Of a DNA stretch of 64,000 nt, positions 7,419-63,352 are shown in pieces. Positions within the stretch are counted from its first letter, which is position 1. Each line of letters opens with the position of its first letter. Source of the stretch: Cadophora sp. MPI-SDFR-AT-0126 (lineage: Eukaryota > Ascomycota > Leotiomycetes > Helotiales > Ploettnerulaceae); NCBI GenBank assembly GCA_020747065.1, contig JAGMVK010000012.1, positions 744,001 through 808,000 on the forward strand. Reading direction: 5' to 3'. The notes under the pieces are model-generated. The model was not told the origin of the DNA. It ran no database searches and saw only the letters and a program-made list of their open reading frames with translations. The position numbers and the translations under genes were made by a program.

Positions 7419-8981
7419 AATATGAATCCAGCCAAAAGCCTTTCAAAAAAGCGATAGATCAATCTAAAAGAGCGTTTACGAGGGCAAAAGCGACCGAAGA
7501 AAATAGAACAGATCGCAGAGGCGAGCAATAATTTAGATTGATTGCTGGATATCCAGGACTCTGGGACCTCGTGGAAGGCAGGGAACATAATCTATTTCCT
7601 GGATTTCCATCGTCGTACATGAGCACAGTGATTCCAGACTCGGGAGTGGAAATTTTGAAAACGTTTGTGTTCTTGCCCTTGTCGTCGTGGGTGAGAATAT
7701 GACTTGCTGCTCAGGACAATTTCCCAGCCTCTGATCATCCAATCCACAGGGTCGCATCGCAATCTCAAGGGCATGAATAATTTGTTCCTTCCGCTGATTG
7801 GTGACGTTTTCGCCTCTTTCTGGTCCTGTGCCCCTCGCTACCGCCGGAACCGTGTATTTTACCCATGCTTTCCCAAATTTGCCATCCAAATTTTCTCAGC
7901 AAAGGGGGGAGGGGTACCGCGTCTTGTTTTGGATTTCCGTCGTCTGACTTGGGACTTTGCCTAAAACAACCTGACGAGCATTCTCCATCCGGAGAAGTGG
8001 GGTAAGAGTCTGGCTGAGGATGTTCCGGCCCGTTGCCGGCCGTAAGGAAAATCTGCGCATCTCGTGATTGCATTGGCTCATTGTTTTGGTTCGCCTTCTG
8101 ACTGCAGGCAATATCAGCTCGGGTAGCCATTGCTGTTCCCCTCTTTGCGCAGTTGTGCCTTAATGATTTGCATATAGAATGATACCTCCAAGCCGGTAGT
8201 CGCAGCTCAAGGGAGCCACTCGAGCACCGGCATAAGGATTGTCATGTTAATGGAAACCCCATATTCGATTCCGATTCTCGGGGGAGTCGAGGAGCTGCGT
8301 CTTAATTATAGTCTGCTCGATTCGGGGAGGGAAAGAGGTTCAATAACGCCCCATTTATCTCAAGTTTTTCTCAAGTCCTCGACTTGAGTACCTTCCCGGA
8401 GCCACATGTGCTTTAATGCAAGAATGTGCTTTGACAGCAAGTGTGCCGCCCCAAGCCACCACCAAATCCTACAACGTGGATGGTGAAGTCTCCAATATGG
8501 CGGAGACACACCCCACATCGAGTATGGAGCTCAAGTCATTGTCAATAACTGTGGCTGCGGCTCAAACGAAGAACAGACCAGTGCAAACGATAGCAGTAGA
8601 AAAGGGGGTATAACCAAACTAAGTGGCTTGGAAGGGACGCCGTGCGGAAACACTAGACAATCTGCAGCCTTCCTTCAATGGCGGGATTGAATATGATTTG
8701 GACTGCGCGGGGATTAAGCTCTGATACCCTCAAACCCTCCTTGGACAGACCTCAGCTTAAAGGTAAACTCGACAAGTGAAAACTATCTCAGGAAAGCTAC
8801 AAAAGCAGAAAAATGAAGCAGAAGTCGCAGAAATAAATATTGCCGATGCTGTTGTATGCTTTAGATTTCTTATAGCAGCCTGGCTTCCTTCTACCAAAAT
8901 GAAGGCCTCTTTAGGCGACAACGTCCAAAATTGTCAGTCGTTATGTTTGCACCATATGGACGGACACCTTTCTTCGTGTTT
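7419..8981. other. Intergenic; promoter of the membrane protein gene and 3' flank of NAD+ synthetase
   Basis: Overlapping short frames (for example 7533-7889 and 7765-8130, minus) lack domains, signal peptides and convincing splice chains. I see no gene here. Confidence 0.5.
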
Positions 8982-26083: not shown

Positions 26084-27951
26084 ATGTCTCTTGGCAACGA
26101 TCAAAATACAACTGTGGCTACGGCTGTCGATGGCCACCAACTCCAGACGCCGAGCGAGGCGAACACTTCATCGCCACATCAAAACCCGATAACAGACGAA
26201 AACATGACTTCAAGACCAGAAAATGACAACTCCATCATCAATTCGACGCATCGGGAAGATGTTGCGAATGTAGGTACCCCCAGGACTCCCGGACCTCTGG
26301 AAAAAGAAACTCGTTATCGGGGAGGAGATTCTCCAGCAATAGAAGAATCTACCGAAGCAATGCTCGAGCGGCTAGGAAGACAAAGACCAGAAGTATTTGA
26401 CTCGATATGGGCGGAAATTATATTTGTTTTTTCGATATCGATGTCCCAGGTTTTGACGGTATGGCCTCTTCCACTTTAGCTGAATCCAATACTAATCTGA
26501 AGCAGGAGTACTTTGTGTCTGGATTCACAGTCATCCTTCCAACTCTGGTCCAGGATCTGAATATCTCGTCTGCTTCAGCAACATGGCCTGCAAGTGCCTT
26601 CTCCCTGGTAGTTGCAAGCTTTCTGTTAATCTTTGGTCGCCTGGCCGATATGTACGGAGGCTTTCCAGTCTATGTCGCTGGCTTTGCTTGGTTGACGCTT
26701 TGGTCTCTGATCGCTGGCTTCTCGACCAACGATATCATGATGAACGTCTGTCGAGCTCTGCAAGGTCTTGGACCAGCCGCGTACCTCCCATCATCAGTGA
26801 TGATTCTTGGAAGCATCTACAGACCAGGTCCAAGAAAGAACCTTGTCTTCAGCATCTATGGGGCTTGTGCCGCACTAGGATTTTTCGTCGGTATCTTCTT
26901 TGCCGGAGTTACTGCAGAGTATGCCACTTGGGGGTGGTATTTCTGGATCGGGACTATTCTCGGAGCTATCACCGCAGTCACATCCTACATCACCATCCCG
27001 TCAGACATCGCAGAGAAGCGCAACGCTCCGGCGAAGGTCCGGATGGACTGGCTCGGAGCAGTACTCATCGTTTGCGGCCTCATCCTCTTCACCTTCGCCA
27101 TCATTGACTCTTCTCATGCACCACAGCAATGGAAGACCCCTTACATCTATGTAACCTTCATCCTCGGATCTCTCATCCTCCTAGCGGGTGCTTACGTCGA
27201 GATGCGCGTAGCAGAGGAACCCCTCCTGCCCGCCTCCCTCTTCAAAGTCCCCTGTATGCCCGCCCTTATCATCGCCCTGTTACTCACTTACGGCTCCCTC
27301 GGCGTCTTCCTCCTCTACGCAACCTTCTACATGGAGAACATAATGGGTGCGTCGCCCCTACAGGTCGTGGCATGGTACGTCCCCATGGCTTTAGGCGGGT
27401 GTATCATTGCCACCTTCGGAGGCTTCATCATGCACCTGCTGTCAGGAACAACACTCATCATTATTTCTGGCACATCCTGGATCATCGCACCGCTTCTCTT
27501 TGCGCTCGCGCCCCAAGGCGCCAATTATTGGGCTTACATCTTCCCATCTATGATCTGCGCCACCGTCGGAATAGACATAACTTTCAACGTCGCCAACATT
27601 TTCATCACGACGTCCCTGCCCCGGAAACAACAAGGACTCGCAGGCTCCGTCATCATGATTTTGCTGCATCTTGGCATAGCAGTATTTCTGGGCTTCGCCG
27701 ATATCGTGAATGCTTATACGGTCGATAGGCTGGGACTAAGGGAGAGCTACCACGCGGTGTTTTGGTTTGAGGTTGCGTGTGCGGCGACGGCGTTGGTTGT
27801 TCTGGTAGGGTTTGTGAAGATTCGAAAGGCTGAGAGTGAGTTTACGGTTGATGAGAGGGCGCAGTTGGAGGAGATTGCTAGGGCAAATGGGGAGGCGGCG
27901 GAGGAGGGGAAGAAGGAGGTTGAGAGGCCAGATACGGCTGTGACTGCTTGA
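26084..27951 (+). CDS. MFS drug:H+ antiporter, 14-TM DHA2-like (aminotriazole-resistance type)
   Basis: This is a major-facilitator exporter of 606 residues in two exons (26084-26458, 26506-27951) around a 47-nt intron. The N-terminal about 110 residues are hydrophilic and Ser/Thr/Pro-rich. Then come helix 1 (IIFVFSISMSQVLT, joined by splicing to EYFVSGFTVILPTL), the helix 2-3 loop FGRLADMYGG (MFS motif A), and motif B-like VCRALQGLGPAAYLPSSV. Motif C-like GFFVGIFFAG and the later 14-TM-type helices follow. The C-terminal tail is Glu-rich. Family members export azoles, aminotriazole and other xenobiotics from the plasma membrane; the substrate here is unknown. It is followed by a Zn2Cys6 regulator and a second MFS on the same strand, which suggests coordinated efflux. 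The start at 26084 is chosen over 25988 because the extra residues lack family character. Confidence 0.88.
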
Positions 27952-31172: not shown

Positions 31173-33117
31173 ATGTCTTTGAAGGAATTACCTCTTGATT
31201 CTTCCAGTCAGGATCATTCTTCACTTGACCCCGAGAAGAACACACCTGAACCTGTGGCTGGAGAGACCGTCGACGATGAATCAGAATATTTGACGGGACT
31301 GAAGCTGAGCCTGGTGGTATTGGGTTTATGCCTTGCTGTACTGCTGGTGGGTCTGGTACGTTACCTTGCCATCGGGTTGTGTGTTGCTGCTATTGCTAAC
31401 TAAGAGCAGGATAATTCCATACTATCCACAGCGATCCCGACTATCACTACCAAGTTCAACTCACTCGAAGATGTCGGCTGGTATGGCTCAGCTTTCCTGG
31501 TCTGTGTGTAAGTGATTAATCTCGATCCTCTTCAATGACCGCAGGACTAAATATAACATAAAAGATGTGCGCTCCAACCGATCTCCGGGAAGATATACCA
31601 ATACTTTTCACTGAAATGGACATACCTGGCCTTTCTTACAATCTTCGAAATCGGAAGCTTGATATGTGCTACAGCCGTCAATTCTGTCATGCTGATTATT
31701 GGTCGAGCCATTGCCGGTGCTGGTGCTGCCGGATTGTTCTCTGGAGCCTTGGTTATCCTCTCGCATTCTGTTCCCCTGCGACAGCGACCTTGTAAATTTT
31801 TTAATTTTCAAGAGGTTTTACAGAGATGCTGACATGATTTTACAGTATATACTGGATGCATTGCCTCAATGTTCAGCGTGTCGAATGTAATTGGGCCAAT
31901 TCTCGGTGGTGCTTTCACTCAGCATGCAACATGGCGATGGTGTGGGTTTCCCCTCCTTCCAACACGTGGAAATTCTAACATCAGCAGGCTTTTATATCAA
32001 TCTGCCACTAGGCGCAATCACGGCCGTTATCCTGGTATTCTTCTTCTCGCCACATGAACGCACAACAACAAAACAATCGCTTTCTCAAAAACTCAAGCAT
32101 CTGGATCTGCCAGGATTGGCCCTTTTCATCCCAGCTGTGGTCATGGTCTTGCTGGCAGTGCAATGGGGTGGAACTACCCACGCGTGGAAATCTGCTACAA
32201 TCATCGGACTCTTTGTCGGCTTTGGAGTTCTCATCTGTCTATTCGCGGCTTGGCAATGGTACCTCAAAGATGAAGCCAGCATACCACCTCGTATCGTGTG
32301 CCAACGGAGTGTGTACTCAGCAGCTGTGGTAGTGTTCATGGGGATGGGAAGTGTTCAACTCATTGCCTATTATCTGCCCATGTGGTTCCAAGTCATCAAG
32401 AACGATACACCATTGGAGAGTGGGATTCGTTTCCTATTCTCTGTGCTTGGAGGACTGTTGGGTAGCATTATACCTGGGGGCCTGGGTATGTAATTCTGCC
32501 TTGCGGGCTGGAACTCACGAACTAAAATCGACCAGTAACGATGTATGGCCACTTCAACCCATGGCTGTTCTTCGGCACCAGCGTGCTATCTATCTCGGGA
32601 GGTATCTTCTCGACTTTCGATCTCGAGACAGGGAATGGTATGATCAATGGTATTCAAGTCCTTGGAGGTATCGGCTCTTCCTGCGTGATTCAGATGGTAC
32701 ATACAACTCCCTCTTCATCAATCAAGTCAAGAAAAGCGCTGACTCCTCCAGCCACTGATAGGACTCATGTCTCTCATCCCTCAAGCCGACCTCCCGATTG
32801 CAACCTCCATAGCAGTCTTCTTCCAATTTTTTGGCGGCGCGATCTTCCTCGGCATCGCCAACAACATCTTCGTCTCTCGACTCATTTCCGCTCTTCATAA
32901 GTACACACCTGATATCAATGCACAGATGGCTGTCAGGGTTGGCGCTGAAGGGTTCAGGGAGTTGGTCGGAGAGGCAGATTTGCATGCTGGATTGGTGGCG
33001 TATAGTGAGGCGTTGGTGACAACGTTTTATCTGTGTGCTGCGGGCTCGGCGCTTGCTTTCTTTTGCTCGTTTGGCATGAGGTGGAGAAGTGTTAAGGAGA
33101 AGGAGAGGAAGAGTTGA
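31173..33117 (+). CDS. MFS exporter, 14-TM DHA2 type (TOXA / HC-toxin efflux pump-like)
   Basis: Seven exons (31173-31355, 31410-31507, 31565-31791, 31846-31941, 31988-32485, 32536-32696, 32752-33117) give 542 residues. After a Ser/Glu-rich N-terminus, helix 1 runs into the DHA2 motif [13 protein letters not shown] and the hallmark [37 protein letters not shown], and [16 protein letters not shown] (joined across an intron) follow, with later helices [19 protein letters not shown] and the terminal [14 protein letters not shown]. This subfamily exports fungal toxins and drugs and is common beside secondary-metabolite genes; its substrate here cannot be read. No biosynthetic enzyme core sits next to it, so drug efflux is as likely as metabolite export. 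Charged C-terminal tail: KEKERKS. Confidence 0.9.
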
Positions 33118-37316: not shown

Positions 37317-38473
37317 ATGGCTTTGAATTTTGGCTCGGAGTTTCTAGGGTCTATGCCTCCTATTGAAACCACATTGCCATTTGAAGATCTTGTTGAGAAC
37401 CAAGCAACTCTCACGAAACATCGTGACACATATACTTTCATTGACCCCTATCGCTTCACGAATAAGCTGAGGGGCAAAGTGGTGTTGATAACACAAGCTC
37501 ATCGTGGGATTGGTCGTTCTACTGCAGTTGCATTCGCACGTAAGTCACTTCTCATCTTCCGCCCCCCGCTTCACTTTCATTTTTGCCATCGTCTGTCGCT
37601 TTTATTTTCGGTAGGAATGATTACCTGCAAGCGACTCATTTTTAAGCGAATGATAAATGACACTACTGACCTAATACCACTTTAGAGGCAGGGGCTTCAG
37701 TCTGCTGTATCGGTCCAAGCGCTGAGTCCCTTGAACCAGTACTCCGCGAGATCAAGGAGAAGTTCAATACTCCAACATTGGCTCTGACGGCCGATCTTCT
37801 CGCTCCAAATGCCCCGGTTCAGATCGTGAAACTGGTAGAACAGTATCGCGGAGCGATCGACATTCTCATTAATATCACACCAGCTTCATACATAAGGCCG
37901 TTCGATCAGGAACCCAATGTTATGCAAGACTGGTGGCCGGCAATGGAAGCCGGCCTGCGAGTTCCCCTAGAACTGATCCACGCCGTTCTTCCATCCATGA
38001 AAGAGCGTGGAAGCGGCATCATAATCAGCACAACTCATATTGGTGGTCTCGTGCAAGCGCCATACATTTCGGCAAGCGGGACTGCTGCTGCTGCACTACT
38101 CAAATTCCATCATCATCTCCACTCCGAGACGTCGAAGAAGGGTATAGCATCTTTCCCTGTGCATCCAGGTCTCATTCCAAGTCACTTGCACGATCCAAGT
38201 AGTTCCTTTCTATCGCAGCCAGAGCATGTTGGCCAAGAACCTGGCTTCCGAAACAGATTTATGGACGTGGCGAGGGATATGGAGTGGTGCTCTTCTGGGC
38301 TGGCTAGTGGGACATTCCTAGCTCTGTGTGCTGATCCAAGAGCGAAGATTCTGAGTGGACTATATGTTAATGCTGAGAGAGATCTGGGCGAGGTTATTGA
38401 GAAGATGGAGGCAGACTGGGGTAAGAAGGTTAGAGAAGACAGGCTGTATCTTCTGAAGGTTGACGAGTATTGA
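37317..38473 (+). CDS. Atypical short-chain dehydrogenase/reductase-like protein (catalytic residues altered)
   Basis: Two exons (37317-37539, 37686-38473) give 336 residues. After about 50 lead residues comes a Rossmann fold of the SDR family: GKVVLITQAHRGIGRSTAVAFA (residues 53-74), TADLLAP (the acidic loop), DILINITPAS at the place of NNAG, IIISTTHIGG at the place of the catalytic Ser strand, and PYISASGTAAA at the place of the YxxxK helix. The cofactor loop TGxxxGIG is TQAHRGIG here. NNAG is missing, and the lysine of YxxxK is replaced (Tyr 201 followed by Ile-Ser-Ala-Ser). These changes argue against normal oxidoreductase chemistry, so the protein may be a pseudoenzyme or use a changed mechanism. 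The long C-terminal part (MDVARDMEW...LYVNAERDL) has the shape of fungal SDRs with a GxYV strand. The gene model is secure; the activity is not. Confidence 0.78.
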
Positions 38474-46100: not shown

Positions 46101-48399
46101 TGGCTATTCATCTCAAAACGGTTTGTTTCCGCGGTTGATCTCTTCTAATTCCTGACTTCCCCCTGAGACAGACGCTGAAAGCTTGGTTGGCTCATCTCGC
46201 TGATTCTGTCTCGATAGCTGGGACTCTTTCGATACTCGTATTGCCGCAATAGGCAACTCAGGCGGCCGCGCTGATCTTTTGACATAAGCATGAGATGAGA
46301 TTGGGGTTCGCATAGCCTCATGGATGGCGGCTGTCCTCCTGTTATTGACTCTTAGTATCTTCCGAGGATTTGGAGACGGCGCTGACTTGATAGTGACGAG
46401 TCTTGCAAGCGCTCGTCAAAGGTATTTTAAATGGTGGGTCAAGCTTATGTCGAAGAGATGACATCGAATGTTGAGGACGAGAAGCACACTATTGACTTGA
46501 TTACAATATTTACAACGCAAGCTAGATCAAGGTGAGCTCACGGTCAGGTTGGTAGGGCTGTTCTCAGAAGGCAACCAAGGCTTAGGGGAGAGATAAGGGG
46601 GGGGAGGGGGGGAGGCAGAAATCACGTGCCAACGAAACGAAGCAGAACCTGGTACTGAGACATCGGCGCGCAGTGTTGCGCTCGTACAGCATCGTCTAGA
46701 AGGGATATCTTCTGATACTGTGCAAGATCAGATTTCCTACGGGACACCTTGCGCCCACTCGCTCTCAGGTTGGCGACAAGCAACAAAACAAAACGAGCGC
46801 CGAATTCAAAGTCACGTTTCACGTGAAGGAGAACAGCACTCAGCACTTCTTCCTCGCGACCAGGAACTTCGAAACCGCTAGGAGAAAGAGGCTCTGGCAT
46901 CAATCTCAGAAAAATATCCCCACGTCTCATCTCGGTAACCTATATTTCAATCAAGAATCTTTCTATGAAACATCTTTAAATATCAGACGCCTTAAGGTTA
47001 TTTCGCCCTATCCGCGGCATAACGTCTCGCAGATGACCGACCCACAGTCCGTCCCAAAATAAAACCAAAGTCATGAACCTGGTACCTGGCCCGATACAAG
47101 GAAAACGACTCACAAGATACCAATGAAACACCGAAGGGACGAGTGGAGAAACAGATATAAAGGATGAGTTTGTCTCAAACGGATCGAGAGGTCTTAACAC
47201 CTTATTGAAGACAAAGCCAGAATGCGAGTGTCAGGGCGATTGCTCTTTATGAGGGAAGGTTTCAACTGAGTCGGATTGAGACTGGTAATATTGAAGAAGC
47301 CGAATTCTTCTTCATTCTTCATATCAAAGGAGTGCGTACAAGCGTGTCAGGACAGATATGGCATGAGCTCAGAACCCAAGTTTTGAAGTCTGCAGCTTAC
47401 TCCAAACTTGCGCTTGGATGAAAGTTGAAGGTGTTCTAGACCTTTTCTTGTCGAATGTCTCTCGATCATGGTCTCGATCATGGTCTTGCACGATTCAAGT
47501 CAGATTTGGGTCGCGGCTTTTAAAGCTACCCAAAACCCAGGGATCCTCGAGCTTGGACTTTCAACGCCACACGTGACCATCAAAGTTCTTGAGAGAACCT
47601 TTGGCGCGCAGTCCCAGACTTGGGACACGAGTCTCCGAATGACTGGGTAATTCGAAGTACTGGGATCTCGTCTTGCACACTATAACTGCACCATGAACTA
47701 CGAAATGCAACCAAGAAGCAGAGGCAGAATCTAGTCATGTGACTTAAAGTCCCTAAGCCAGGAATTGGTCGTGAACGGCAAGAGCAACCTATGGTGCCTG
47801 CTGCAACGGATATGAGATAAATCGAATACTTATTTACTCCAAGAGACTCACGATCCTCTAATTTCTCAATGACAGGACCTGGGATAGGACTGGACTCGCA
47901 AAGGCATAGAAGGAAGTGGTAGGTATAATATGGTAATGTGAGCGTTTCAATGGCGGTACATTTACAGTCAGAGCATATAATTCACTTTTCTCAATAGGAA
48001 ATTTTCGCCTCGTTCATTTCTACACATTTCTCTTAGTGTAAGGCTGCTGTAATTTTTCTGTCGGGATCACAAAAGTCCCATTCCGTATTTACTGTTTGTT
48101 GCGAGCCTCGCCGCAACCCCTCCAGGTTATGTGGGGAATTATATTCTGGGTGTTTCCTTATCTCCCTTGGCGTCTCTAGCTGCTGTTCAGTTGATGGATC
48201 GGTGGTGATCTCGGTGGTGATAAGTCATCGGAGCGTTTCGGTGGCTTTCGCCATCGGCAACTTCGCCGCACAACAACACGTATCATGGCCGTGACGGGAC
48301 AGAGGAAGAGGTGAAAAAGGAACAGTCCAAGTCATTCATAAATAGGTATGTGGATAGTATTTCGCAATCTATTGAAAACGTGAAGGTTGCACGAAGTCC
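43149..48399. other. 5.2-kb gene-poor region
   Basis: No gene could be supported. Notable items are a GCAC tetranucleotide repeat near 43615-43642, a duplicated TCTCGATCATGG at about 47460-47485, and a G-rich tract (GGGGGGGGAGGGGGGGAGG) near 46598-46617. Minus-strand frames at 45368-45048 and 45001-44723 (with FNEKARALTDLRKNWAAWK) are protein-like but have no start context or splice chain that I could confirm; they may be a decayed gene. Confidence 0.4.
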
Positions 48400-49164
48400 T
48401 TGCCATCACCAAAACCGCGGGCAGGTACCGAGGGACTATCAACAACAACATTGCTGGCCAACCTCAACAACATGTCTAACACACCCATCACATCCCTACC
48501 AGGGTATCCGTATTTCTATGCGATACCCATCAATGGGTACATTCGTGACGGTCCCGACAAAAGATCAAAAAGGTTCAGCAAAAGTCGTCTCCAAGATCGT
48601 CAATCCCTCTCACCGCCATACACGCCGCCGCCAGCATGGTCGCCTTACATTCTTGAGGGCTTGGCTGAGCTAGATGGACTCAACGAGATCCCTCGACAGA
48701 TATACCCAGATCATCAGCGACCCTATGAGAATCCACGGATTAAGCGCCCGCAAACGACTCCGCCCGAGATGTCACAGCGGAAATCTCGCTTCCCGTCTCT
48801 GTCAATCAAACATTCTTGGGCAGCATATAAGCCTCAAGTCTCGAGTCCGTTGTCATCATCGAGTAGTGCGGACAGTCTTCAAGATCTGTTCACGATCGAA
48901 GAGCAGGATACTGAGCGTAGTAGTGCTGGAGACTTGCGTCTGGTACCTGTGGCGGAGACGGAAAGACGTGAGGAGGATATGAGTGATGAGGAGAGAGTTC
49001 AGGTTGCACTGATTGAGAGTATCTTTGTGATGCTGCATAACCTTCAGCCGAATTATCTGCCCAAGCCGGAGAAGACTGTGTCACAAATTATGCCGCGTCC
49101 GTCAAGGAAGAACAGGCTCGCTCGCCAGCCGTCTGTGCGAATTTCACCTATGTTCGCTTCATAA
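48400..49164 (+). CDS. Hypothetical Ser/Pro-rich protein
   Basis: This is an open frame of 254 codons. The in-frame ATG at 48472 (MSNTPITSLPGYPYFYAIP) gives 230 residues and has the better context (caacATG), so it may be the true start. The protein is rich in Ser, Pro and Arg, with a Tyr-containing N-terminal stretch (PGYPYFYAIPINGYIRDG), a Ser run and a short helical part near the end (EERVQVALIESIFVMLHNL). No domain is recognised and there are no cysteines, signal peptide or membrane segment. The length of the open frame and its composition, which is coherent in one frame only, support coding. It lies 0.55 kb from the UstYa gene in convergent orientation and may be unrelated to it. Confidence 0.5.
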   Translation: MPSPKPRAGTEGLSTTTLLANLNNMSNTPITSLPGYPYFYAIPINGYIRDGPDKRSKRFSKSRLQDRQSLSPPYTPPPAWSPYILEGLAELDGLNEIPRQIYPDHQRPYENPRIKRPQTTPPEMSQRKSRFPSLSIKHSWAAYKPQVSSPLSSSSSADSLQDLFTIEEQDTERSSAGDLRLVPVAETERREEDMSDEERVQVALIESIFVMLHNLQPNYLPKPEKTVSQIMPRPSRKNRLARQPSVRISPMFAS

Positions 49165-49713: not shown

Positions 49714-50657
49714 TCAAGGTATTGCTTCGTAGATGGTATCACCAACCTGCGGCGGCTTCAGGAAATCCTCTGGGACATCCTCCGGGATCTGTCTCTCCTC
49801 TGCCCACTGTCTGATTGCCTCAAAATTCTTGCACTTGTGCTCCGTATTGAAGTCGACAAACGCCTTAGGATACTCCCGGTCCCACCAGACCTGACCAAGG
49901 AGCCCGGTATCTGGCGTACACATCAGCTGCTGGCGGATGATGTCTAAACAATGCGAGACATGGTACTGCACGATGTTGTCCTTGTTGACGAAAGCACCCT
50001 TGCCTTGGGACCGGTAGTAGTCGATGTTGTAGTAGAGAGACTGGCGCACGAGGTTCAGGCAGTGAAGATGGTGGAGTCCTTCGACGTTGGCGGGGAATCC
50101 GCCTCCGTACTTGGGGTTGATTTGCACTTGATCTGGCTTCAATCCGGATCTTGGTGCTTCGCTGACTGGGACGGCTATTCCTCTGTCTGTTGATCCATTA
50201 GCACTGTTTTATGCTGGAGGCTGGAAATACTTACAATCTACGCCCAGAGATTCCCAAGCAGCATCAACTCCGGAATCAGGTCCTCCTGGTAGTCGGAAGA
50301 CACTTTCCTTCATGAAAGAGCCATTAAATCGTACCATGTGGTAGTCGTTATCCACCTCGTTCAGGATTGGAGCTTCTCATAGTTCAGTCTGGAGTGAGTT
50401 GTGCTTGATTTGAAGAACTCACAATATTTCTGGACGTGCTCCAAACAGTACACATTTGTCCAACGACTTCCAATCCAAGCTCCAAGGCCGAGAAATCCAA
50501 TCGAAGAGAGGATTAGGAGAAAAACTGCGGTCCAAATTGGCAACCCTCGAGTTTGTTTTTGGAATATGGGTCCGGAATCTTGGGAGAGCAGTCCTTCGCA
50601 ATCATCTGCGGATTGAGAGCCGCTTTCGCTGCTGTCTTTGACTTGTTCGTACTTCAT
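49714..50657 (-). CDS. UstYa-family (DUF3328) membrane oxidase of RiPP or mycotoxin biosynthesis
   Basis: Three exons (50657-50423, 50372-50235, 50186-49714) encode 281 residues. A short cytosolic N-terminus is followed by one membrane helix (about residues 40-62: IWTAVFLLILSSIGFLGLGAW) and a lumenal domain. Both signature motifs of the family are present: HHLHC (residues 163-167, HxxHC) and HVSHC (200-204, HxxHC), thought to bind the metal used for oxidation. FNGSF and ESLGVDYRGIAVP, typical of the family before the first motif, are also seen. Relatives (UstYa/UstYb, PhomYa, the asperipin and epichloecyclin enzymes) oxidatively cyclise ribosomal peptides through tyrosine or other side chains; others act on non-ribosomal products. 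The gene is divergent from the repeat precursor that starts 1.4 kb away, the classical dikaritin arrangement. The family is certain; precursor as substrate is a strong inference. Confidence 0.92.
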
Positions 50658-52082
50658 CTTGATTCAAAAACTTTGCTGACTTGATGAGCTCTTCGACAAC
50701 TAGAGGGTCCTTCGATAAAGTAAACCGTCCGTAAGAATTGACAAGTGTTTGTATTGAACTCGCGATGCTTCGGAGTATTCGCAGAAGACAGAGTACAAAG
50801 TATCTTCTGAAGGCCCGAATACAAAGCCTTACATCCACTATTTACAGCCTCGAACTAAGGTTATTGCCCGTCTCCATGACGCAAAACCCTATCCGATATT
50901 CGTGTCTGCATCGGTCCTCTGCAGACGCCATGCTGCATTAGTGTCAACAATCAACCCACCACAACACGAGAGGTGAGGTTCGTTGGCGCATGCAACAGGC
51001 TCAATCATCATGGATTATTAGATTGACCAATATTTTAAATTCTGGTACTAGCAAAAAAACAATACGAGAAAAGCTTACATTCCATCAATAACCCCGCATC
51101 ACGTAGTTTACCCCTCCATAGGGGTCTTGCCAAGACGCCGTCACTCCGCTTACTCGAGCGACGTTTCTCAAAATAGACTTCGTAACAACTTCACAACATC
51201 ATCACTTGTTGACATCAACCGAAATCGTTCCTTCGTGGCTCACGCTGTCTGAAATAGTCTCATGTTATGTCAGTCCGTCAAAATATCGAGCGTCTTGGAA
51301 GCTGCTGCAAGCATCTGATCCATGAGCGCCGTGCTGCCGAAACTCGTGGCCAGAAGGTCCAGTTGCTTTTTCAGCTAATACTATGATGCCTCACAGTTAC
51401 ATTCCTCGGTTATGCACAGAACAAGCTTCTCCAGATTCTAGTACGAAAGTGCGGTGTGATGCGCATCCACTAGTACTGGTGGCGCTGTCTCTCATGCAAG
51501 GCTACGCTTCAATACGAGGAGCTTTCTGGATGCCGAGTTGACATCGAGCGGAGCTCCCGCATATCCTGCCCCGAATCAGAATACCATGAGCATCATCTGA
51601 TTGCGATTCAAAGCAAGCTGCATGTATCCATTGATTGCAAATACGAAGGTCTGCATTAGGTTTCACAAGAAAATCGACCTTCCACATCGGCAAATGCAAT
51701 GGTAGTCGTTGTTTGCCATCGTCGTTATTCTAACTCGCACCTTCAGCACGCAAAGTGTCGAGGCTAACTGCATTCACTGCCTCAAAGTTTGGCCGGCGCT
51801 TTCATTCATACGAGATATCGGCTGCGATGGTGTTACTTCGGTCCCATAGACGGTAGAACATTGTGTGGAGAAGAGAGAATAGCCCTGTCTAAGCAATGTT
51901 GGGTCTATCCCATTTTCTGAATATCAACGTCATTTCTTATCCACCTATGACAAGTCGTAGCTTTCATCTATATATCTCATTCCCCTCATGAGCAAGTCCT
52001 TCTTTCTCCATCTCTCTCATACTTCATCTGCTTCACTTTCATCTACGCCTCCAGCTTCAAAACAAACTTAAAATCCTTGACC
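50658..52082. promoter_or_regulatory. Divergent promoter region shared by UstYa gene and RiPP precursor
   Basis: About 1.4 kb lie between the two ATGs, with only meaningless short frames. Near the precursor, a TATATAT box (51969-51975) lies 108 nt before its ATG and is followed by a long CT-rich tract (about 52000-52060), as in strongly expressed fungal genes. I see no CGG-N-CCG palindrome that I would trust. Confidence 0.5.
51969..51975 (+). promoter_or_regulatory. TATA-like box of the RiPP precursor gene
   Basis: TATATAT is placed 108 nt before the start codon, with a pyrimidine-rich tract between it and the ATG. Confidence 0.5.
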
Positions 52083-53388
52083 ATGCGTCTCTCAACTTTC
52101 GCTATCTTGGCGGCTGCTTCGGCAGTCTCTGTCTCTGCTATGCCAGCTCCTGTTCCTGCTCCAGAGGCTGCTCCAGAAGCCGCTCCTGTTGACTACGGAA
52201 AGTATGGTGGTGAGTTCCCCTTCTCCTCGCGACAGTAGCATGACATTTCTAACATGATATCAACAGATTATGGCAGTAAGCATCCCTCAAAGGCCATTCG
52301 AGCTTCGCTCGAAGAGGCTCAAACAGACATCTGACCGCATCATGATAGACTATGGAAAATACAACAACTACCCCGCTCCCCCAAAGCCAACTCCCACTCC
52401 ACAGAGTATGTCCAACTTCTCAACGATTGATTGTTAGACAATGCTAACTTCACCTTTCCCAGGCTACGGCAAATAGTATGTTTCTCAATCAAGTCACCAG
52501 TAGAAGATTGGATTCACTCGAGCAATGCTGACTTGAAATCACCTGAAGTGCTAGCTACGGCTCCTACAAGCGTGAGCCAGAGGCTGATGCCGCTCCTGAG
52601 CCTGCACCAGAGGCAGAGGTCATCGAGAAGCGAGTTGACTATGGCAAATACGGCGGTAAGATACCCCTCTATCTAGATCTTACATTATTTGGCTAACTTG
52701 GTTTCGACAGACTATGGAAGTTAGTAACCTCGCAATCGCTGTGGCGATCTGAAAAGCAGAGCAAAATGTCTAACCACGCGTATAGATTACGGAAAATACA
52801 ACAATTACCCAGCTCCAACCACTAAGCCAACTCCTACTCCAACTCCACAAGGATATGGCAAATAGTATGTCTTCCACACTGTCACCACGCTGTGCGCTAC
52901 TCCTCGGCATGGCTATGGATTTTGCTCGATTTCCTGTTTTGAGCTGCACGTACTGACACATCTTGTACAGTGCCAGCTACGGATCCTACAAGCGTGAGCC
53001 AGAAGCTGAGGCTGAGGCTGCTCCGGAGCCAGCTCCAGAGCCAGAGGCCGAGATCGTTGAGAAGCGTACTGATTACGGCAAGTACGGTGACTACGGCAGT
53101 GAGTTCTCCTCGACCCTTGACCGGTTTTCACTCCATATCACTGACCATCCTACAGACTACGGGAAGTACAACAACTACCCAGCCCCAACTCCCGCCCCAA
53201 CTCCCAAGGGTAAGTAGAAATTCTTCGAGCATCATATGATTTCCGTCGCCTGAGGACTTCTGTCTCTGGCAAATCTTGAGTCAAGGACCAAGCTGATTGA
53301 AAACGTAGGATATGGGAAGTATGCCAGCTACGGCTCTTACAAGCGCGTCGAGGCTGAGGCTCAGGCTGAGGCTGAGGTTGAGGCTTAA
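52083..53388 (+). CDS. Secreted multi-repeat RiPP precursor (dikaritin-type candidate), ten exons
   Basis: I read ten exons: 52083-52209, 52267-52275, 52349-52405, 52463-52475, 52549-52655, 52711-52719, 52786-52864, 52971-53098, 53156-53209, 53309-53388. They total 663 nt and encode 220 residues with consistent phases. Residues 1-19 are a signal peptide (MRLSTFAILAAASAVSVSA); a Pro/Ala/Glu leader follows. Three copies of a unit then run from (V/T)DYGKYGDYGNYGKYNNYPAP, through a Pro/Thr linker, to YGKYASYGSYKR. Each is followed by an acidic Glu/Ala/Pro spacer, the first two ending in EKR. The Lys-Arg pairs are Kex2-type sites that would release the units in the Golgi. Signal peptide, acidic spacers, KR sites and tyrosine-rich repeats match precursors of ustiloxin, phomopsin and epichloecyclin type, and a UstYa enzyme is adjacent. 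The true core within each unit is unknown. A tyrosine-rich cell-wall protein is the main alternative. Confidence 0.85.
52188..53346 (+). repeat. Three tandem Kex2-bounded tyrosine-rich repeats of the precursor
   Basis: Repeat 1 covers 52188-52573, repeat 2 covers 52634-52995 and repeat 3 covers 53068-53346, introns included. Each has ten tyrosines in about 40 residues. They differ in the first residue (V, V, T), the Pro/Thr linker and the residue before YGKYASYGSYKR (S, G, G). The ends are almost invariant. Intron positions inside the units are shared but not all kept in every copy. Confidence 0.85.
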
Positions 53389-54190: not shown

Positions 54191-55534
54191 TCAAACACCC
54201 CATACCAGGTCAGAACCGCCCTTCAGCCACTCTCCAGTGACCTCTCTTGGCTCCTCGCCTTCTCCCCAAACTTTGCCTCGTTGGGTATTCTTCATGACGT
54301 GGACGCGCTTGAGGATGGACTCGCCGACGAAAGGTTGATGGAATCTGCAACCCACAAGCGTGAAGCAATTATTGATGTGCCAGGCCACTGGATTCTTATC
54401 GCCCTGTATTATAGAGTCAATATGTCAGTTTTTCGCTCATCTCAGCGTTACAGATCATGGTAAAGAACCCGGTGGTTGACCAAGGCAGCATTTTGCACTG
54501 GGGCCACTTACAAAGATATCCTTGACGTGGACTTCAACGTAAGCATCTTCCTCTGGGGAATTTGGTACGTTGTGGCCGATGATCTCAACTGTCACGTTTC
54601 CAAATGTTGGTCTCTTCTTGGTGAAAGTGTTTGGAGAAGGGGTGAACATTTCCTCGACCGTCAACTTCTTTCTCTTGGGAGGTGGGACTATAGTGGCAGT
54701 GTACGAAGTGGTTTCTGTGGAAACGACAGTGCCTTCCCTGCTTTTGGCCGCTCTCGAGACGACAAGACCAGAGGACGAGGCTGGGACTGTGGTCGCGGAT
54801 TGGATGGCAGGTGTTCCTCGTTCCTCCTTGATGATGACCTTGTCTCTGGAGAGTATAAAGTACCGGCATTGGAATCCGTCGTCGACGTTCCTCTCAACCT
54901 CAATAATGTACTTGGCACCTGAGATCGACGCTTTGAGATTTTCTGTGGTGTGATTCTTAAGGAGAAAGAGACACTCGGCGGTGGCTAATCTGGGAATTTT
55001 GCACGTCAGTGATTGTTATGAGCCTAATTTGTGACGTATTGGAGAGGAAGTGATGAGGTAAAACTGCCATAGAATGGTCAAGACCTTGACCAATTGACTT
55101 CAGAGATACCATGAAGCACTAAGAGGAAAATAAATGAAACGACACAGTTAAGGAATGACAGTTTTTTGCCCAAAGGTACCTCAAAGTACGATACTTGCTA
55201 AGCTGTGAAGGATTATCAACTTACTTGCCAATGAAGGAGCTAATATGATCCTTGACGTTCTCAGCTCTGATATTTGGATGAGCCAAAATAACAGGTCTGT
55301 AGAGGATCATAAGTCAGTAATCTTTCCTCAAAGTACAAAAAGGGTTGTGTTTGACAAGAGTAATTTGTCGAGGCACAAGGTAAAGGTTTGCGATCTTCAA
55401 GAGAAAAAAGACTGTCAAGGGAACATTAGGTAGTAGGCGTTGGGCACTCACTGGTTTGCACAGCAGAAGACAGTTTTGGATCTCGGGTCGGTAGCAACAA
55501 AGGTTGCCTGGGTGGTGTGGTCGATATTAGCCAT
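54191..55534 (-). CDS. Unknown protein of 281 residues next to the RiPP genes
   Basis: Four exons (55534-55452, 55296-55225, 54989-54512, 54403-54191) join in phase. The start is MANIDHTTQATFVATDP and the end is GGSDLVWGV. The N-terminal part (SKTVFCCANQ, then PVILAHPNIRAENVKDHIS and LATAECLFLLKN) looks like a small alpha/beta fold. A basic Pro/Thr region follows (IVPPPKRKKLTVEEMFTP), then a beta-rich end (FGNVTVEIIGHNVPN, YVEVHVKDIF). No catalytic motif, membrane helix or signal peptide is seen and I recognise no family. Lys/Arg clusters could be nuclear signals. It reads toward the precursor gene from the right, so shared regulation is possible but cannot be claimed. Confidence 0.65.
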
Positions 55535-56710: not shown

Positions 56711-58148
56711 ATGGAAGCTCAAAATGCAATCATTCTGAATGACCTGGATCCTGGCTCCAACGGAATAGCAGAAGAAGAAACAATTCATCATGAGTTCTCG
56801 CTCCCACGAGCTGACAGTGGGAAAGATGCCTGGCTATTCTTGGCTGCTGGGTTTGTGATTGAGGCTCTTGTTTGGGGCACGTACTTTCATGATTTTGAAC
56901 TTGATGTTCAAATATCCCTTGTATGCTGTCTAATTTTTGAACAGGATTTCCATTTTCTTTTGGTGTCTTCCAAGAATACTACGGCAACCATGAGCTATTT
57001 TCATCGGACTCCGCCGGCATAGCCGTCATAGGAACAACAGCGACTGTAAAGATCCCCCATGTACTTCTACAAACCCCCACTAAAATGCCCAGGGCTTAAT
57101 GTACATGTCTGGGCTCGTCCTCTTTCCAGCCTACAAAAGATTTCCCCATCTCGCCAGCACCTTGAAATGGGCCGGCCTCCCCTTCATGGCAGCCGGGCTC
57201 TTCGCCGCCTCCTTCGCCCAAAAAGTACAGCACCTCATCGTGACCCAAGGGGTCATCTACGCCATCGGCGGATGTATCATCTACTATCCCACCCTCCTGT
57301 ACATTGACGAGTGGTTCGTGCAACGCAAAGGTCTTGCGTTTGGGATCATGTGGGCGGGTACAGGAGCAGGAGGTTTGATTATCCCATTCGTTCTGAATGG
57401 CTTGCTGCAGAGATGGGGATTCCGCACCACGTTGCGAATCTGGGCCACGGCGCTCCTTATCCTCTCTTCGCCACTGATCTACTTCCTGCGTCCTCGAATT
57501 CCGGTGTCCAGAAACCCGACTTCGCAGCGCTATGTTGGACTTGGATTCTTGAAATCGCCTTCGTTCTGGCTCTTGCAAATCGGGCTTGTGATTGAGTCGT
57601 TGGGATACTTCATCCCCAGTTTGTACCTCCCGACGTTTGCTAGCTCACTTGGACTCTCGAGATCAGTTGGGACGGTATTGGTTGCCCTGCTCAACGCAGC
57701 CGGAGTCGTGGCTACAGTCTTAATGGGCATGCTCTGCGATCGCTTCCACGTCACGACCGTTATAGTCCTCTGTTCTGTTGGTGCTACATTCTCCGTCTTC
57801 CTGTTCTGGGGTCTCTCTACAGCATTGCCACTCCTCATCGTCTTTGCCATCGTGTACGGATTCTTTGCGAGTGGTTTCGTGAGTACGAATGCTGGCGTGA
57901 TGAAAATGATTAAAGGAGAAGATCCGACGGTAGACATGGGACTTTTGATTGGAATTATTAGTGCCGCGAGAGGAGTGGGCGCTGTTGCTTCAGGGCCGTT
58001 GAGCGAGGCGCTTCTGAGGGGTGAGATGTGGAAGGGCAAAGTAGGACTGGGGTACGGGAGTGGATATGGAGGTCTGATTGTCTTTACGGGTGTGACGGCT
58101 GGATTTGGCGGCATTGGATTCTTAGGGAAGAGATTAGGATGGATGTAA
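56711..58148 (+). CDS. MFS transporter, monocarboxylate-porter (MCT) type
   Basis: Three exons (56711-56876, 56945-57045, 57093-58148) give 440 residues. After a hydrophilic N-terminus, helix 1 reads DAWLFLAAGFVIEALVWGFPF, then SFGVFQEYY, a clear match to fungal MCT-type porters. GTTATGLMYMSGLVLFP, YPTLLYIDEWFVQRKGLAFGI (the family's helix 4-5 signature with DEWF), GTGAGGLIIPF and a long loop follow before helices 7-12. Intron 1 appears to be a GC-AG intron (donor GCACGT): only this splice gives the conserved WGFPFSFG. Family members move monocarboxylates, riboflavin, esters or secondary metabolites. It lies 3.3 kb from the RiPP precursor, so export of its product is possible but unproven. 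Confidence 0.85.
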
Positions 58149-58334: not shown

Positions 58335-59787
58335 TCATATTCGTCGTTTCTTACTACTAACGCCTGCTGATCCTGATCCTGATTCTGCTTCTGCTCCTGA
58401 TTCTGATCGAGAGAGGTCATCCGAGAAGGGCGAGAATTGATCCCTAACATACTCAAGTCCATGCTCGATATAAAGTTCCATTAATGTGTTCCGTTCTCGT
58501 TTTGACTTCAACCTCTTCATCTCTTCCTGTTGCGTATGGGCCTTTAATGCGTCGCGAGTGACTAATGGTCGACTTAAAGGGTCCCGGTCGAGGCCGTGAC
58601 CTCCATTTTCCATATCAAAGCTCACCGGTATGTCATTAAGAAAGCCCGGTGAAGTCGTAGGTTCATCCGTAGAGACAAGGGGGACTAAATGCGACGTGTC
58701 CGGAAAGCTGATGTCTGAAATAGGGTTCGGGAGTAAGTCATCATCACGGTTCTGGGTGTCAGGCGTGTTATCCTCTTCAGTCCACTTTTCTTCCTCGACC
58801 CACCCAAAGGAACCACACTTGTTTCGCGACCAGGCGTCCGACTCTGCATCACCATTTGTAGCGGACAGTGAAGCGCGCGATACATCGTCCACAAGGAGAT
58901 TATATTTCTTGATCGCTTCGTTTGACGTTTGTGGAGCTGAGGATGTCTCTTTAGTTGACTCATCACCAGCTGGTCGTTTCTTGCCTCTGGCATTGTTGCT
59001 ATCTCCACCATGGCGTGGATCAGGCTCAAAACCGGACGAGGTATGGTGAAGTGCGATCATGGCTTCTGCAGCCTCCTTGATGGTTTGCATCGGCTTGGAT
59101 CTGATGACAAGTGCTTGCTCAACTCGAGTAACTTGGATCTGCGTCCCGTCTGGGTCCAGCAAACCTTCATCAAGAGATGCGGGTTGTGATTTGGACTCTC
59201 GGAAAGCGGTCGTAAGCTCTTCTCTCAGTATGTTTCTGTTGCTCTTGAGTCAGCCATTGCTGAGTAAAGATGACACTGGTCATGAGAATGCATTGAAGAA
59301 TATCTTACCGAATAGCAGTTGGTTCATGGTTATTATCAGCAATCTCATTCTTGATGAGGCTCAACAACAACTGCAGGCTGCTCTTCAATGGCTCCAAAAA
59401 GCCCCTCAACTCCAACATCTTCGCCTTATCCTTCATCCACATGACCTTCGATTTCAATCTGAACATGCTATCTTTATATGGTTGCAGTCTCTTCAGAATA
59501 TTCTCCATACTAGCATAGACCATCTCGCACTGCATGATCAGTCCCGGAATGACGCCAATGGCCTTGTCGAGGATATCTGAGCGAGAGGTTCGAAGGCTGT
59601 GATCTTTGAGATTGGCTCGTACAACGACGAGGATCTCGGCGAAGATCCGTACTTCGGATGAGAACAGCAGAATCTCATTGCCTGCGGAACCTAATGCTGA
59701 CGCGGTGTTCGAAAGTGCCAGGTAGAGTTTGAAGCCTGCGTCTGCTATGGCGACGATACCAGAGATAACACCTAGGATCTCGGCCAT
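58335..59787 (-). CDS. Solo fungal STAND N-terminal helical domain protein
   Basis: Two exons (59787-59309, 59241-58335) give 461 residues. The first about 150 residues match the helical N-terminal domain found on fungal NLR/STAND proteins: MAEILGVISGIVAIADAGFKLY, then ALGSAGNEILLFSSEVRIFAEIL and LKSSLQLLLSLIKNEIA. Full-length family members continue with a NACHT/NB-ARC ATPase and WD40, ankyrin or TPR repeats. Here the rest is instead a disordered Ser/Asp/Pro-rich region, then a short Lys-rich helix (KRLKSKRERNTLMELYIEHG) and a Ser/Glu/Gly tail ending KKRRI, a possible nuclear signal. Such stand-alone forms are common in fungi. They may act as adaptors or signal partners in self/non-self recognition, which is inference. 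Start and splice are well supported by phase. Confidence 0.8.
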
Positions 59788-60616
59788 GTTGATTAATTAA
59801 ACTACGTGTCCATGACTATCGGTATTTGAGAAGAAAAACTTGGCTTTTGGTCAAGATATCAATCTCTTCCGAGCTTCAAAGGCGCTGTTGTACCGCTCAT
59901 TTGATTGAAGCAGGCTGGGGAGGCTGTGTTGCCTTCACAGACCCAATCACAGCCACACTACCCAATGTTATCTGCAACCCTCTGAAGCTGTATGCCTTCC
60001 CAGTTGACCTCGTCAGGCTTCTACTGGCGTGAAGTGACACAAATGGAAAATGCTCAAACTGGCTGTTGCAAGCAGGCCAGACCACCGATTTTGAAGCGCT
60101 TCACACCATCGCCAGAAGTTTGCAAGGTCAATCAAACACTGTCGACGATAGCGAATCGAGAGCTGATAGTGCAGAACATACGCAAAAGTAGATTGAAATC
60201 GGACAACAACAACTTTGTCCTGAGATGTAATTTCGAAGTGGTGTGCTGCGACCAAGACGAAGAAATTGCACTATCTCTATCCGTTCGACGTCAAGATGTC
60301 CACGCACCACCGACACCGCAAAGCAAAATTGTAAGTAACAAAACAATACCTGGTATACCGAAAGGAAGGAGAACCTAAAATCATTTTTGAGAATGGTTGT
60401 TGAATTTGTAGCACGTGACCAACCAGGCACAAGGCGGAAACGCGGCGTCGGGATTTACTTTCGTTTTGATAATCATGACCACTTGAACTTTGCCTCTGTG
60501 AGCTCCTAAATCAACCCCCTCCGACCCAATTCCCACACCGATGCGACACAGATAGGAGGCATCCCAATCACAGCTTGTGACCCTTCTCCGACCTTTCTTT
60601 TCCTTCTTTCACAAGT
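59788..60616. other. Divergent promoter region
   Basis: This lies between the STAND-type gene (reading left) and the m-AAA protease gene (reading right). A 128-codon frame at 59992-60378 has no recognisable content. Confidence 0.5.
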
Positions 60617-63352
60617 ATGCACTCCATACTGCGACAGTCCAGCAATATTGCTAGGATATCGAGGTCATCCCTCCAGACTGCAGCGAGATCATCACTGCGC
60701 TCCACGAACCATGCGCCATTATCGACTTCCATAAGAGCTGTCCAACAAGCCCGGTTATACTCAAACAAACAGAAGCCGGGAAAGAAAAGTGAGGTGAAAA
60801 AGGATGACGCCGAAGTAAAGGACAAGAAGAATGTCGAGACACCCTCGAAAACAGCTCCGGGAACGGAGAATCTCTACGATGGCCAGACGCCACTCAGCAA
60901 GAAAGTAGAGGAGGGAGAGGCCAGTGAGCCCGAGCTTGCAGAGGGTATGGTGAGGATGAATCCGGAGGACGAGAAAGCAATGCGGGAGCTACTGGACACG
61001 CTGAAGCTGGGGTTACCAAAAAGCCAGGTTGAGGTTATCGAACGGGCTTTTGAGAATATTCAGAAGGAGGGCATGCCGAAGGAGTTGAGGGAGCTGATGG
61101 ATGATGTTAGAGGCAAGCCTATGACGCTGTCGTCTGCGGCCAAGTTGACGAGGTTGGCGTCGCAGATGGCGAGGAAGCAGGCTGAGAGGGACATGGACAA
61201 AGATTCTAAGAAGACGGATTTCCAATCGAATGATCCAAAGAACTCGTCTGGCGGCTTTGGAGGCTTTGGAAATCTGCCTCCAGGAGGAAATAAGGGAGGG
61301 AAACAACAGCAGGACGGTGGCTTCAAGGTTGGGGAAATCAAGATTGATATAGGCACGCTGCTGTTGTCGGCTTTCGTATCCTATCTGTTGTACAGAATGG
61401 TCATGCCCGGAGAGAGCAGACGGGATATCACGTACCAGGAGTTCAGAAGCACGTTCCTTGATAAGGGATTGGTAGAGAAATTGACAGTCACGAGTGGAGG
61501 TAAGGTCAGAGTTGATTTACATCGCGAAGCTACACAACAGACCTACCCCGATTCTCCTGCCGTCAACCCCAACTTTCACTACTACTTTTCGATTGGTTCC
61601 GTGGAGTCCTTTGAACGGAAACTGGATGAGGCACAGAATGAACTTGGGATCCCTCCCTCGGAAAGAATACCTGTCAACTATGCCTCGGAAGGTGATGCTT
61701 GGGGACTGATTCTCAGCTTTGGTCCTACGCTCTTGTTCATTGGTGCGATCTTCTACATGTCGCGGCGAGCTTCTGGCGGTGGTGGAGGAGCAAGTGGCGT
61801 ATTTGGCATGGGCAAGAGTCGAGCCAAGCAGTTCAACCACGAGACAGACGTCAAGGTGAAGTTTGCCGATGTTGCTGGCATGGACGAAGCTAAAGCCGAG
61901 ATCATGGAATTCGTCTCTTTCTTGAAGACTCCTGAACAATTCCAGCGCCTGGGTGCTAAGATTCCACGAGGTGCCATTCTCTCTGGCCCTCCCGGGACGG
62001 GTAAGACTCTCTTGGCCAAGGCTACGGCTGGTGAATCCCAAGTACCGTTCTTCAGCGTTTCTGGTTCCGAATTTGTGGAGATGTTCGTCGGTGTTGGTGC
62101 TTCTAGAGTACGTGATTTGTTCGCCATGGCGAGGAAGAACACGCCTTGTATCATCTTCATCGACGAGATCGACGCTATTGGAAAGGCTCGTGGAAAAGCT
62201 GGATCCTTCGGTGGCGGTAATGACGAACGAGAAGCTACATTAAATCAGATCTTGACTGAAATGGATGGTTTCAACACTGCCGAACAGGTAGTTGTTCTTG
62301 CTGGTACCAACAGACCTGACGTCCTTGATAAGGCATTGATGCGTCCTGGCCGTTTCGACAGACATATTGCTATTGATCGACCTACTATGGATGGACGAAG
62401 ACAGATCTTCATGGTCCATTTGAAGAAGATTGTCACGAATGAGGATTTGGAGTACTTGACAGGTCGTCTTTCGGCTTTGACCCCGGGCTTCTCAGGAGCT
62501 GATATCGCAAACTGTGTCAACGAGGCTGCTTTGATTGGTATGTGCAGTTGCCCTTCTTTGCTTGCTTCACACTAACATTCTCTAGCCGCCCGAACGAGTG
62601 CGAAATCTGTAGAGATGCTCCACTTCGAACAAGCCATTGAGCGTGTCATCGGTGGTCTCGAGAAGAAATCACTTGTCCTCTCACCCGAGGAGAAGAAGAC
62701 AGTAGCATATCACGAAGCTGGCCACGCCATTTGCGGATGGTACTTCAAGTACGCCGATCCCCTCCTGAAAGTCTCCATCATTCCGCGCGGCCAAGGAGCT
62801 CTCGGCTACGCACAATACCTCCCAGCAGGCGACACCTATCTCATGAACGTCAACCAGCTCATGGACCGCATGGCCATGACCCTGGGCGGCCGTGTCTCAG
62901 AAGAACTTCATTTCGAGACTGTCACCTCTGGCGCCTCAGACGACTTCAACAAAGTAACCCGCATGGCCACAGCGATGGTCACCAAATGGGGCATGAGTAA
63001 GAAGCTCGGCCCCCTCCATTTCGAAGACAACGAGCAAGCCCTGCACAAGCCGTTCGCTGAATCTACCGCCCAGACCATCGACGCTGAAGTCCGTCGCATC
63101 ATCGACGAGGCGTACAAACAGTGCAAAGATCTCCTCACGGAAAAGAAGGCCGAAGTAGGGATCGTGGCTGAGGAACTCCTTGCGAAGGAAGTCCTCGATA
63201 GAAATGATATGGTGCGGTTATTAGGCGCGAGACCATTCGATGAGAACAAGGATTTTACGAAGTACTTTGGTGGTAGTGGAGAGAAGAGCGCTCCTCCGCC
63301 TTTCCCCACGGAGAGCACTGATTCCCCGCCAGAGCAGCCGAATCCAGTATGA
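60617..63352 (+). CDS. Mitochondrial m-AAA protease subunit (Afg3/Yta12 type)
   Basis: Two exons (60617-62537, 62586-63352) encode 895 residues. The subunit is an ATP-dependent zinc metalloprotease of the mitochondrial inner membrane that degrades misfolded membrane proteins and processes precursors. An Arg/Ser-rich N-terminus without acidic residues is a matrix targeting signal. Two membrane helices follow (about 243-262 and 361-380) with the FtsH extracellular-type domain between them. Walker A is GPPGTGKT (457-464), Walker [12 protein letters not shown], and the second region of homology contains [20 protein letters not shown]. The zinc site HEAGH (683-687) and the downstream [11 protein letters not shown] acidic ligand region are intact. 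The splice joins [13 protein letters not shown] to AARTSAK as the family requires. A Pro-rich tail ends the protein. Whether it is the Afg3 or Yta12 paralogue is not settled by inspection. Confidence 0.97.

Follow-up and report, generated by a model that had tools for sequence, protein, structure and literature searches.

The window analysed here, a 64,000-nucleotide stretch of the genome of Cadophora sp. MPI-SDFR-AT-0126 (contig JAGMVK010000012.1, positions 744,001 to 808,000), contains at 49714..53388 two divergently transcribed genes, which code for an enzyme of the UstYa family (PF11807, formerly DUF3328) and for a secreted precursor with three tyrosine-rich units bounded by Lys-Arg sites. 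The boundaries given for this locus by a first-pass annotation proved exact. The UstYa gene (49714..50657, minus strand) has three exons (50657-50423, 50372-50235 and 50186-49714) and encodes a protein of 281 residues that matches Pfam PF11807 with an E-value of 8.1e-55. Its splice model is independently matched, since the product is identical over its full length (100%) to a protein deposited for the same strain (P0020). The two HxxHC motifs that the first-pass annotation had recognized are present as HHLHC (residues 163-167) and HVSHC (residues 200-204). In an alignment of 40 UstYa relatives, taken from the 120 listed of 606 matches, H163, H166, C167 and H200 are invariant, and H203 and C204 are conserved in at least 90% of the proteins. 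A single-chain structural model (mean predicted local distance difference test score 78.7) shows a single helix at the N-terminus (41-75), with the motifs on helices 160-174 and 194-213. The motifs and helices of a copper-dependent DUF3328 enzyme are thus seen in the sequence and the model, respectively, and the protein is predicted to be a copper enzyme, the metal being assigned by family. In the same family, CctR is a dinuclear copper, O2-dependent C-H hydroxylase whose HxxHC motifs also lie on helices (PMC12435403; here and below, papers are cited from the portions of their text that were available). CctR resembles the Cadophora protein in its N-terminal membrane helix and in its HxxHC(x)nHxxHC arrangement on paired helices, but it hydroxylates, and its substrate is a non-ribosomal peptide (PMC12435403).

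The precursor gene (52083..53388, plus strand) is composed of ten exons (52083-52209, 52267-52275, 52349-52405, 52463-52475, 52549-52655, 52711-52719, 52786-52864, 52971-53098, 53156-53209 and 53309-53388), which are joined in frame across nine GT..AG introns and encode 220 residues. It is separated from the UstYa gene by a 1.4-kb intergenic stretch to which no gene was assigned (50658..52082), and which is possibly a promoter shared by both genes. The hydrophobic N-terminus of the translation, approximately its first 19-20 residues (52083..52142), is a predicted signal peptide. It is followed by three Tyr-rich copies of a unit with the layout DYGKYGDYGNYGKYNNYPAP, a Pro/Thr linker and YGKYASYGSYKR, each copy being bounded by Lys-Arg. 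Unit 1, with the peptide VDYGKYGDYGNYGKYNNYPAP..YGKYASYGSY, spans approximately 52188..52575 and is interrupted by four introns; unit 2 (approximately 52633..52991, three introns) has 43 residues to its Lys-Arg site, and unit 3 (approximately 53068..53341, two introns) has 39. Without trimming or modification, units 2 and 3 would have calculated monoisotopic masses of 4763.18 and 4307.94 Da, respectively. In the translation the unit ends as YGKYASYGSY-KR. Acidic Pro/Ala/Glu spacers ending in E-KR follow units 1 and 2, and a short acidic tail follows unit 3. Altogether, the precursor has five [KR]R sites and neither Cys nor Trp. Each unit carries ten Tyr residues, arranged in two runs at every third position and forming eight Tyr-x-x-Tyr pairs, with 24 such spacings in the whole protein. 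As in Kex2-processed repeat proteins generally, repeated dibasic-bounded units are thus found behind a hydrophobic N-terminus, and cleavage is predicted. The ten-exon model bears out the divergent secreted precursor with three near-identical units that had been proposed, though the introns within the units had gone unmentioned.

Part of this ladder of tyrosines is encoded by microexons. Units 1 and 2 each have, between their first two introns, an exon of 9 nucleotides (52267..52275 and 52711..52719, both on the plus strand and in phase 1 on both sides) that specifies one YG step, while in unit 3 this step is fused to its neighbour. According to the gene model, omission of a 9-nucleotide exon would keep the frame and shorten the ladder.

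Comparison of the three units indicates what has been preserved. Among the 41 ungapped codon columns of the peptide part, 10 are identical, 26 differ by synonymous changes only and 5 by nonsynonymous ones, with four further gapped columns. All five nonsynonymous columns lie outside the Tyr/Gly ladder, at the first residue and in the Pro/Thr linker. The 10 ungapped columns of the spacer comprise 3 identical, 1 synonymous and 6 nonsynonymous, with 15 gapped. In the two invariant blocks, which were chosen for their identical residues, a random single change would be synonymous in 19% of cases. Introns at matching sites have identities of 0.47-0.59 in five of six pairs and of 0.67 in the sixth, against a mean of 0.57 and a maximum of 0.67 in a shuffle control (200 shuffles of one pair), so that most pairs resemble each other no better than shuffled DNA does. 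Because the DNA has drifted while every ladder Tyr and Gly has stayed, the units are old copies under selection for the peptide. Judged from these sequence comparisons, the precursor gene is real and selection acts on its unit peptide.

Relatives of the precursor were found well beyond Cadophora, with 53 proteins at E<=0.001 (19 with the precursor as query and 34 more with its 13-row alignment), each search scoring the approximately 8,000 candidates that share most words with the query. They include proteins of Amylocarpus, Acephala, Glarea, Pseudogymnoascus, Geoglossum, Exophiala, Venturia, Zymoseptoria, Aureobasidium, Rachicladosporium, Trichoderma and Purpureocillium. In the proteins as deposited, YGxY followed by Lys or Arg is kept in 44 of the 53 and a [KR]R pair in 48, and many have a single short unit only. 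No Cadophora protein is among the precursor matches listed, though the Cadophora UstYa is deposited. Apparent read-through or mis-joining at the ladder introns of P0003, P0007 and P0151 fits a gene that is poorly handled by automatic annotation. Two features of the relatives may be recorded in passing. In P0006, from Acephala macrosclerotiorum, some 55 residues of Cys-rich sequence interrupt the second Tyr unit, and these are either a captured domain or the product of a mis-joined gene model. Similar short amphipathic tails, e.g., AIDFVKRLWS, follow the last Tyr unit of P0013, P0015, P0017, P0140, P0016, P0146 and P0167 (from Geoglossum and metagenomes) and are absent from the Cadophora precursor.

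The pairing of precursor and UstYa recurs. In each of the three strains for which rows of both kinds were listed, the two proteins are encoded on contigs of equal size: P0001 and P0045 of Amylocarpus encephaloides (72,057 nucleotides), P0006 and P0044 of Acephala macrosclerotiorum (848,192 nucleotides), and P0168 and P0080 of Pseudogymnoascus VKM F-4513 (62,260 nucleotides), the last two with the consecutive tags V494_04832 and V494_04831. The pattern that the first-pass annotation had named as speaking against its proposal, precursors widespread in genomes with no UstYa neighbour, is therefore not what emerged from the three testable strains among the 28 precursor rows. In a tree of 49 of the 120 listed UstYa proteins, those of Cadophora, Acephala, Amylocarpus and the powdery mildews Blumeria, Golovinomyces and Podosphaera group together in a clade with support 100/98, whose 24 rows we take to be Leotiomycetes throughout. 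A second Cadophora UstYa paralogue, P0130, falls apart from it.

How such a locus is to be classified depends on the definition. In the newer one, the DUF3328/UstYa enzyme defines the dikaritin class (PMC12048977), and a UstYa with two HxxHC motifs indeed lies beside the precursor. The older definition combines the precursor with a tyrosinase, a methyltransferase, multiple DUF3328 proteins and a transporter or peptidase (PMC12048977). Here, none of the 43 tyrosinase matches of the genome is on the 2-Mb contig that carries the window, the window holds a single UstYa match, and neither a methyltransferase nor an S41 protease was found in the 30 domain-scanned frames out of 56 chosen open frames of at least 110 residues, a scan that genes with short exons would escape; a major facilitator superfamily (MFS) transporter is present. 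The earlier impression that no protease, methyltransferase or second enzyme lies nearby thus holds within this scope, and for proteases as regards the S41 kind. Working dikaritin loci that do without some of the five genes exist (PMC12048977). The alternative of a split cluster was rejected on account of the distance to the nearest other UstYa match, approximately 112 kb, and of the contig having no tyrosinase match. Of the two options first put forward, a minimal or a split locus, the former looks more likely, given that the precursor/UstYa pair recurs, and the latter less so.

The closest parallel is asperipin-2a of Aspergillus flavus, which derives from FYYTGY and whose cluster comprises aprA, aprY, aprT and aprR (PMC6514808). 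The two systems share a Kex2-type precursor, a Tyr-x-x-Tyr core, a single UstYa homologue (AprY in asperipin-2a) and, in the cluster as described, the lack of a tyrosinase. They differ in that the asperipin core has six residues, whereas the Cadophora unit has 39-43 with ten Tyr, and in that the asperipin cluster adds a transporter and a reductase, whereas the Cadophora MFS frame (57084-58145, plus strand, identified by Pfam), 3.7 kb downstream of the precursor, is only a putative member of the locus. The ustiloxin and phomopsin systems likewise have secreted precursors with repeated KR-bounded units and a UstYa-family enzyme (PMC6514808), but they possess a tyrosinase, a methyltransferase and several DUF3328 genes, against one UstYa here. 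The cores of ustiloxin, phomopsin, asperipin and epichloecyclin span 4-7 residues (PMC6514808), against 39-43 between Lys-Arg sites in Cadophora, where further trimming is possible; accordingly, the label dikaritin-type given in the first-pass annotation suits the genes and does not yet extend to the product.

Gene pairs of this general kind are known: a survey of 7878 Kex2-repeat precursors found a DUF3328 gene near 1758 of them and Tyr in 65.6% of the repeats (Umemura 2020; PMC7329392). Cadophora is not among the genera named there for Tyr types with DUF3328, as far as the available text goes, and the Tyr-ladder family may already be contained in the list of types drawn up by that survey. 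The available passage of another paper (PMC8329847) does no more than cite this survey. The family was not found in the literature searched, a search that reached main texts, with supplements, figures and paywalled papers outside it, and which agrees with the first impression of an unfamiliar core. Querying the ladder motifs as text returned 11 papers, none of them about a fungal peptide as judged by title, and the available text of a study of Trichoderma ribosomally synthesized and post-translationally modified peptides (RiPPs) has no such motif (PMC7099791). Nine dikaritin clusters have been reported in Venturia (PMC9632046), and the Venturia relative P0155 may be one of them, their sequences not being readable in that source. 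A comparison of folds added nothing, with one PDB chain by sequence, at E 0.21, and no match by fold at E<=0.001.

Taken together, these data are best accommodated by a minimal, asperipin-like locus, in which Kex2-released, Tyr-rich peptides are cross-linked through tyrosine by the adjacent UstYa, a reading to which we give somewhat better than even chances. The precursor would enter the secretory pathway by its predicted signal peptide, and Kex2 would cut after the Lys-Arg sites to yield peptides some 40 residues long, each with ten Tyr. Kex1 and a Ste13-type dipeptidyl peptidase would then trim their KR ends and Pro/Ala/Glu spacers. UstYa is predicted to be anchored by its one N-terminal helix with the catalytic part in the lumen, where it would oxidize side chains and link the two tyrosines of Tyr-x-x-Tyr pairs, in the simplest case through ethers, by analogy with asperipin-2a. 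With ten Tyr in two runs and eight such pairs per unit, several rings per peptide are possible.

Several observations weigh against this reading. The unit is far longer than known dikaritin cores. Hydroxylation and halogenation also occur among UstYa-family enzymes (PMC12435403). Among the 53 relatives, five lack a [KR]R pair and nine lack YGxY before a basic residue, some of these proteins being clearly mis-modelled. Equal contig size is a proxy for linkage, gene distances lacking for the Amylocarpus and Acephala contigs, and pairing could be assessed for three of the 28 precursor rows on contigs longer than 5 kb; the other 25 fall outside the comparison because 120 of the 606 UstYa matches were listed, each cluster being represented by its longest contig. 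The contig-paired UstYa of Pseudogymnoascus, moreover, is weakly placed outside the Leotiomycete clade. Finally, no precursor of a powdery mildew, Aspergillus or Penicillium is among the named matches, though UstYa relatives of these fungi are.

The main rival is an extensin-like, insoluble coat, in which cross-links would tie the released Tyr/Gly/Pro peptides to one another or anchor them in the cell wall. Ten evenly spaced Tyr per unit and the Pro/Thr linkers suit such a material. Isodityrosine links are a feature of plant extensins. Kex2-derived Rep1 peptides of Ustilago assemble into amyloid-like fibrils (PMC9769878). Where products of Kex2-repeat loci are known, however, UstYa proteins take part in forming rings in small peptides (PMC6514808), and many precursor relatives have one short unit only, so that we regard a coat as quite doubtful.

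We consider it similarly improbable that the peptides are secreted in linear, unmodified form as signals or pheromone-like factors, the neighbouring UstYa serving some other purpose. The KR-E-P/A spacers do resemble the Ste13-trimmed spacers of alpha-pheromone precursors (PMC9769878), and linear Kex2-repeat peptides are common, 6120 of the 7878 surveyed genes having no DUF3328 neighbour (PMC7329392). On the other hand, the precursor/UstYa pairing is repeated in all three testable strains, the Tyr ladder is frozen, the precursor has none of the Trp or Cys that pheromone cores of these fungi carry (PMC6339444), and DUF3328 genes almost never accompany pheromone genes (PMC7329392). A pheromone precursor was rejected as a candidate, there being no Trp or Cys in the protein and a UstYa gene adjoining it. 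That UstYa modifies the peptides by hydroxylation or another C-H oxidation instead of cross-linking is very unlikely, for although C-H hydroxylation is the reaction carried out by the family member CctR (PMC12435403), the substrate of CctR is a non-ribosomal cyclic peptide, and UstYa/UstYb and AprY of Kex2-repeat loci have been tied to ring formation (PMC6514808).

Beyond the MFS frame, an FtsH-type frame with AAA and M41 protease domains (60581-63349, plus strand) is likely a housekeeping gene that marks the end of the locus. The Pfam scan also identified a short-chain dehydrogenase/reductase frame (37670-38470), a second MFS frame (26401-27948), a TRI12-like frame (31891-32490) and two weak, sub-cutoff DNA-binding matches (16002-18137), with no further match apart from the UstYa in the 30 frames scanned, and gave no match for open frames of 186-304 residues flanking the pair at 48376-49161 (plus), 54458-55015 (minus) and 58338-59249 (minus).

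In the rest of the genome (G000), further copies of the precursor were sought and rejected. Its own exons account for seven of the ten genome matches, the other three having E-values of at least 0.7, and the DNA pattern for YG[S/T-like]YKR occurs five times, three of them in the precursor; the two outside sites are at chance level, since the reversed control gives 4 and 4. The 46 UstYa segments of the genome were grouped by hand into 26 neighbourhoods, including the window locus. A repeat screen, which detects near-identical units only, flagged four of 16 regions from 15 of the 25 other neighbourhoods (L021, L026, L030 and L033), and the translations of the first three resemble ordinary Kex2-repeat precursors. 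In L021 (~6300-6900, plus strand; contig C7, ~805,600-806,200), units of the form AAPxNxYGxAHTLKMAxDA-KR are found at a distance of about 1 kb from a UstYa match; in L026 (~7330-7520, plus strand; C6, ~110 kb), the repeat AYRLxISWKRDE..AVEQE lies about 2 kb from one. L030, on C36, has at least five 16-residue repeats, VVVADKEKYDRRSGEG, on the minus strand (~3500-3800 of the reverse complement); an adjoining frame provides a signal-peptide-like start, and a UstYa match is near. L033 has a two-copy repeat, HMxGRRRKL, at 8011 and 8116 (plus strand) near a UstYa match on C8. Nine UstYa segments, apparently of several genes, are gathered in less than 9 kb at C20:135734-144359 (L019 and L020), where the same screen found no Kex2-repeat precursor. 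UstYa and tyrosinase matches are approximately 6 kb apart or less on C33 (~977-982 kb), C5 (~1071-1078 kb), C12 (~970-974 kb) and C7 (~999-1008 kb), and these sites are candidates for classic dikaritin-like clusters. A genome with several loci of the usual kind, together with a contig that has no tyrosinase match, sets the window locus apart as distinct and apparently minimal. The Kex2-type P domain has one match in the genome, and DPPIV_N has three at two places.

As for function, the conservation of the system across lifestyles, together with the frozen ladder and the repeated pairing, suggests a general role, such as that of a physiological or developmental peptide, in preference to a lineage-specific or host-specific toxin. 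Other DUF3328 genes have been tied to infection and to fruiting bodies (PMC5006380; PMC3472292), the available text of these papers drawing no link to an orthologue of the window UstYa. A more elaborate picture, in which a single dinuclear-copper UstYa staples the Tyr ladder of a conserved, non-toxin RiPP into a multi-ring rod, the number of rungs is tuned by skipping of the 9-nucleotide exons, and the family has been overlooked as gene finders miss microexons, is offered as decidedly tentative and on balance unlikely.

A Kex2-repeat precursor beside a DUF3328 gene was already known, and the Cadophora locus is a new variant by virtue of its long Tyr-ladder unit, its 9-nucleotide microexons and its conserved pairing. 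The nine introns that fragment its gene have likely caused the precursor to be overlooked in gene surveys, and annotation-based surveys of Kex2 repeats, if this is true, can miss microexon genes. If the reading proposed here is correct, the substrates of UstYa enzymes would extend to long peptides with many tyrosines, and one of the UstYa peptide loci would be an old, conserved part of the biology of filamentous ascomycetes and not a lineage-specific toxin.

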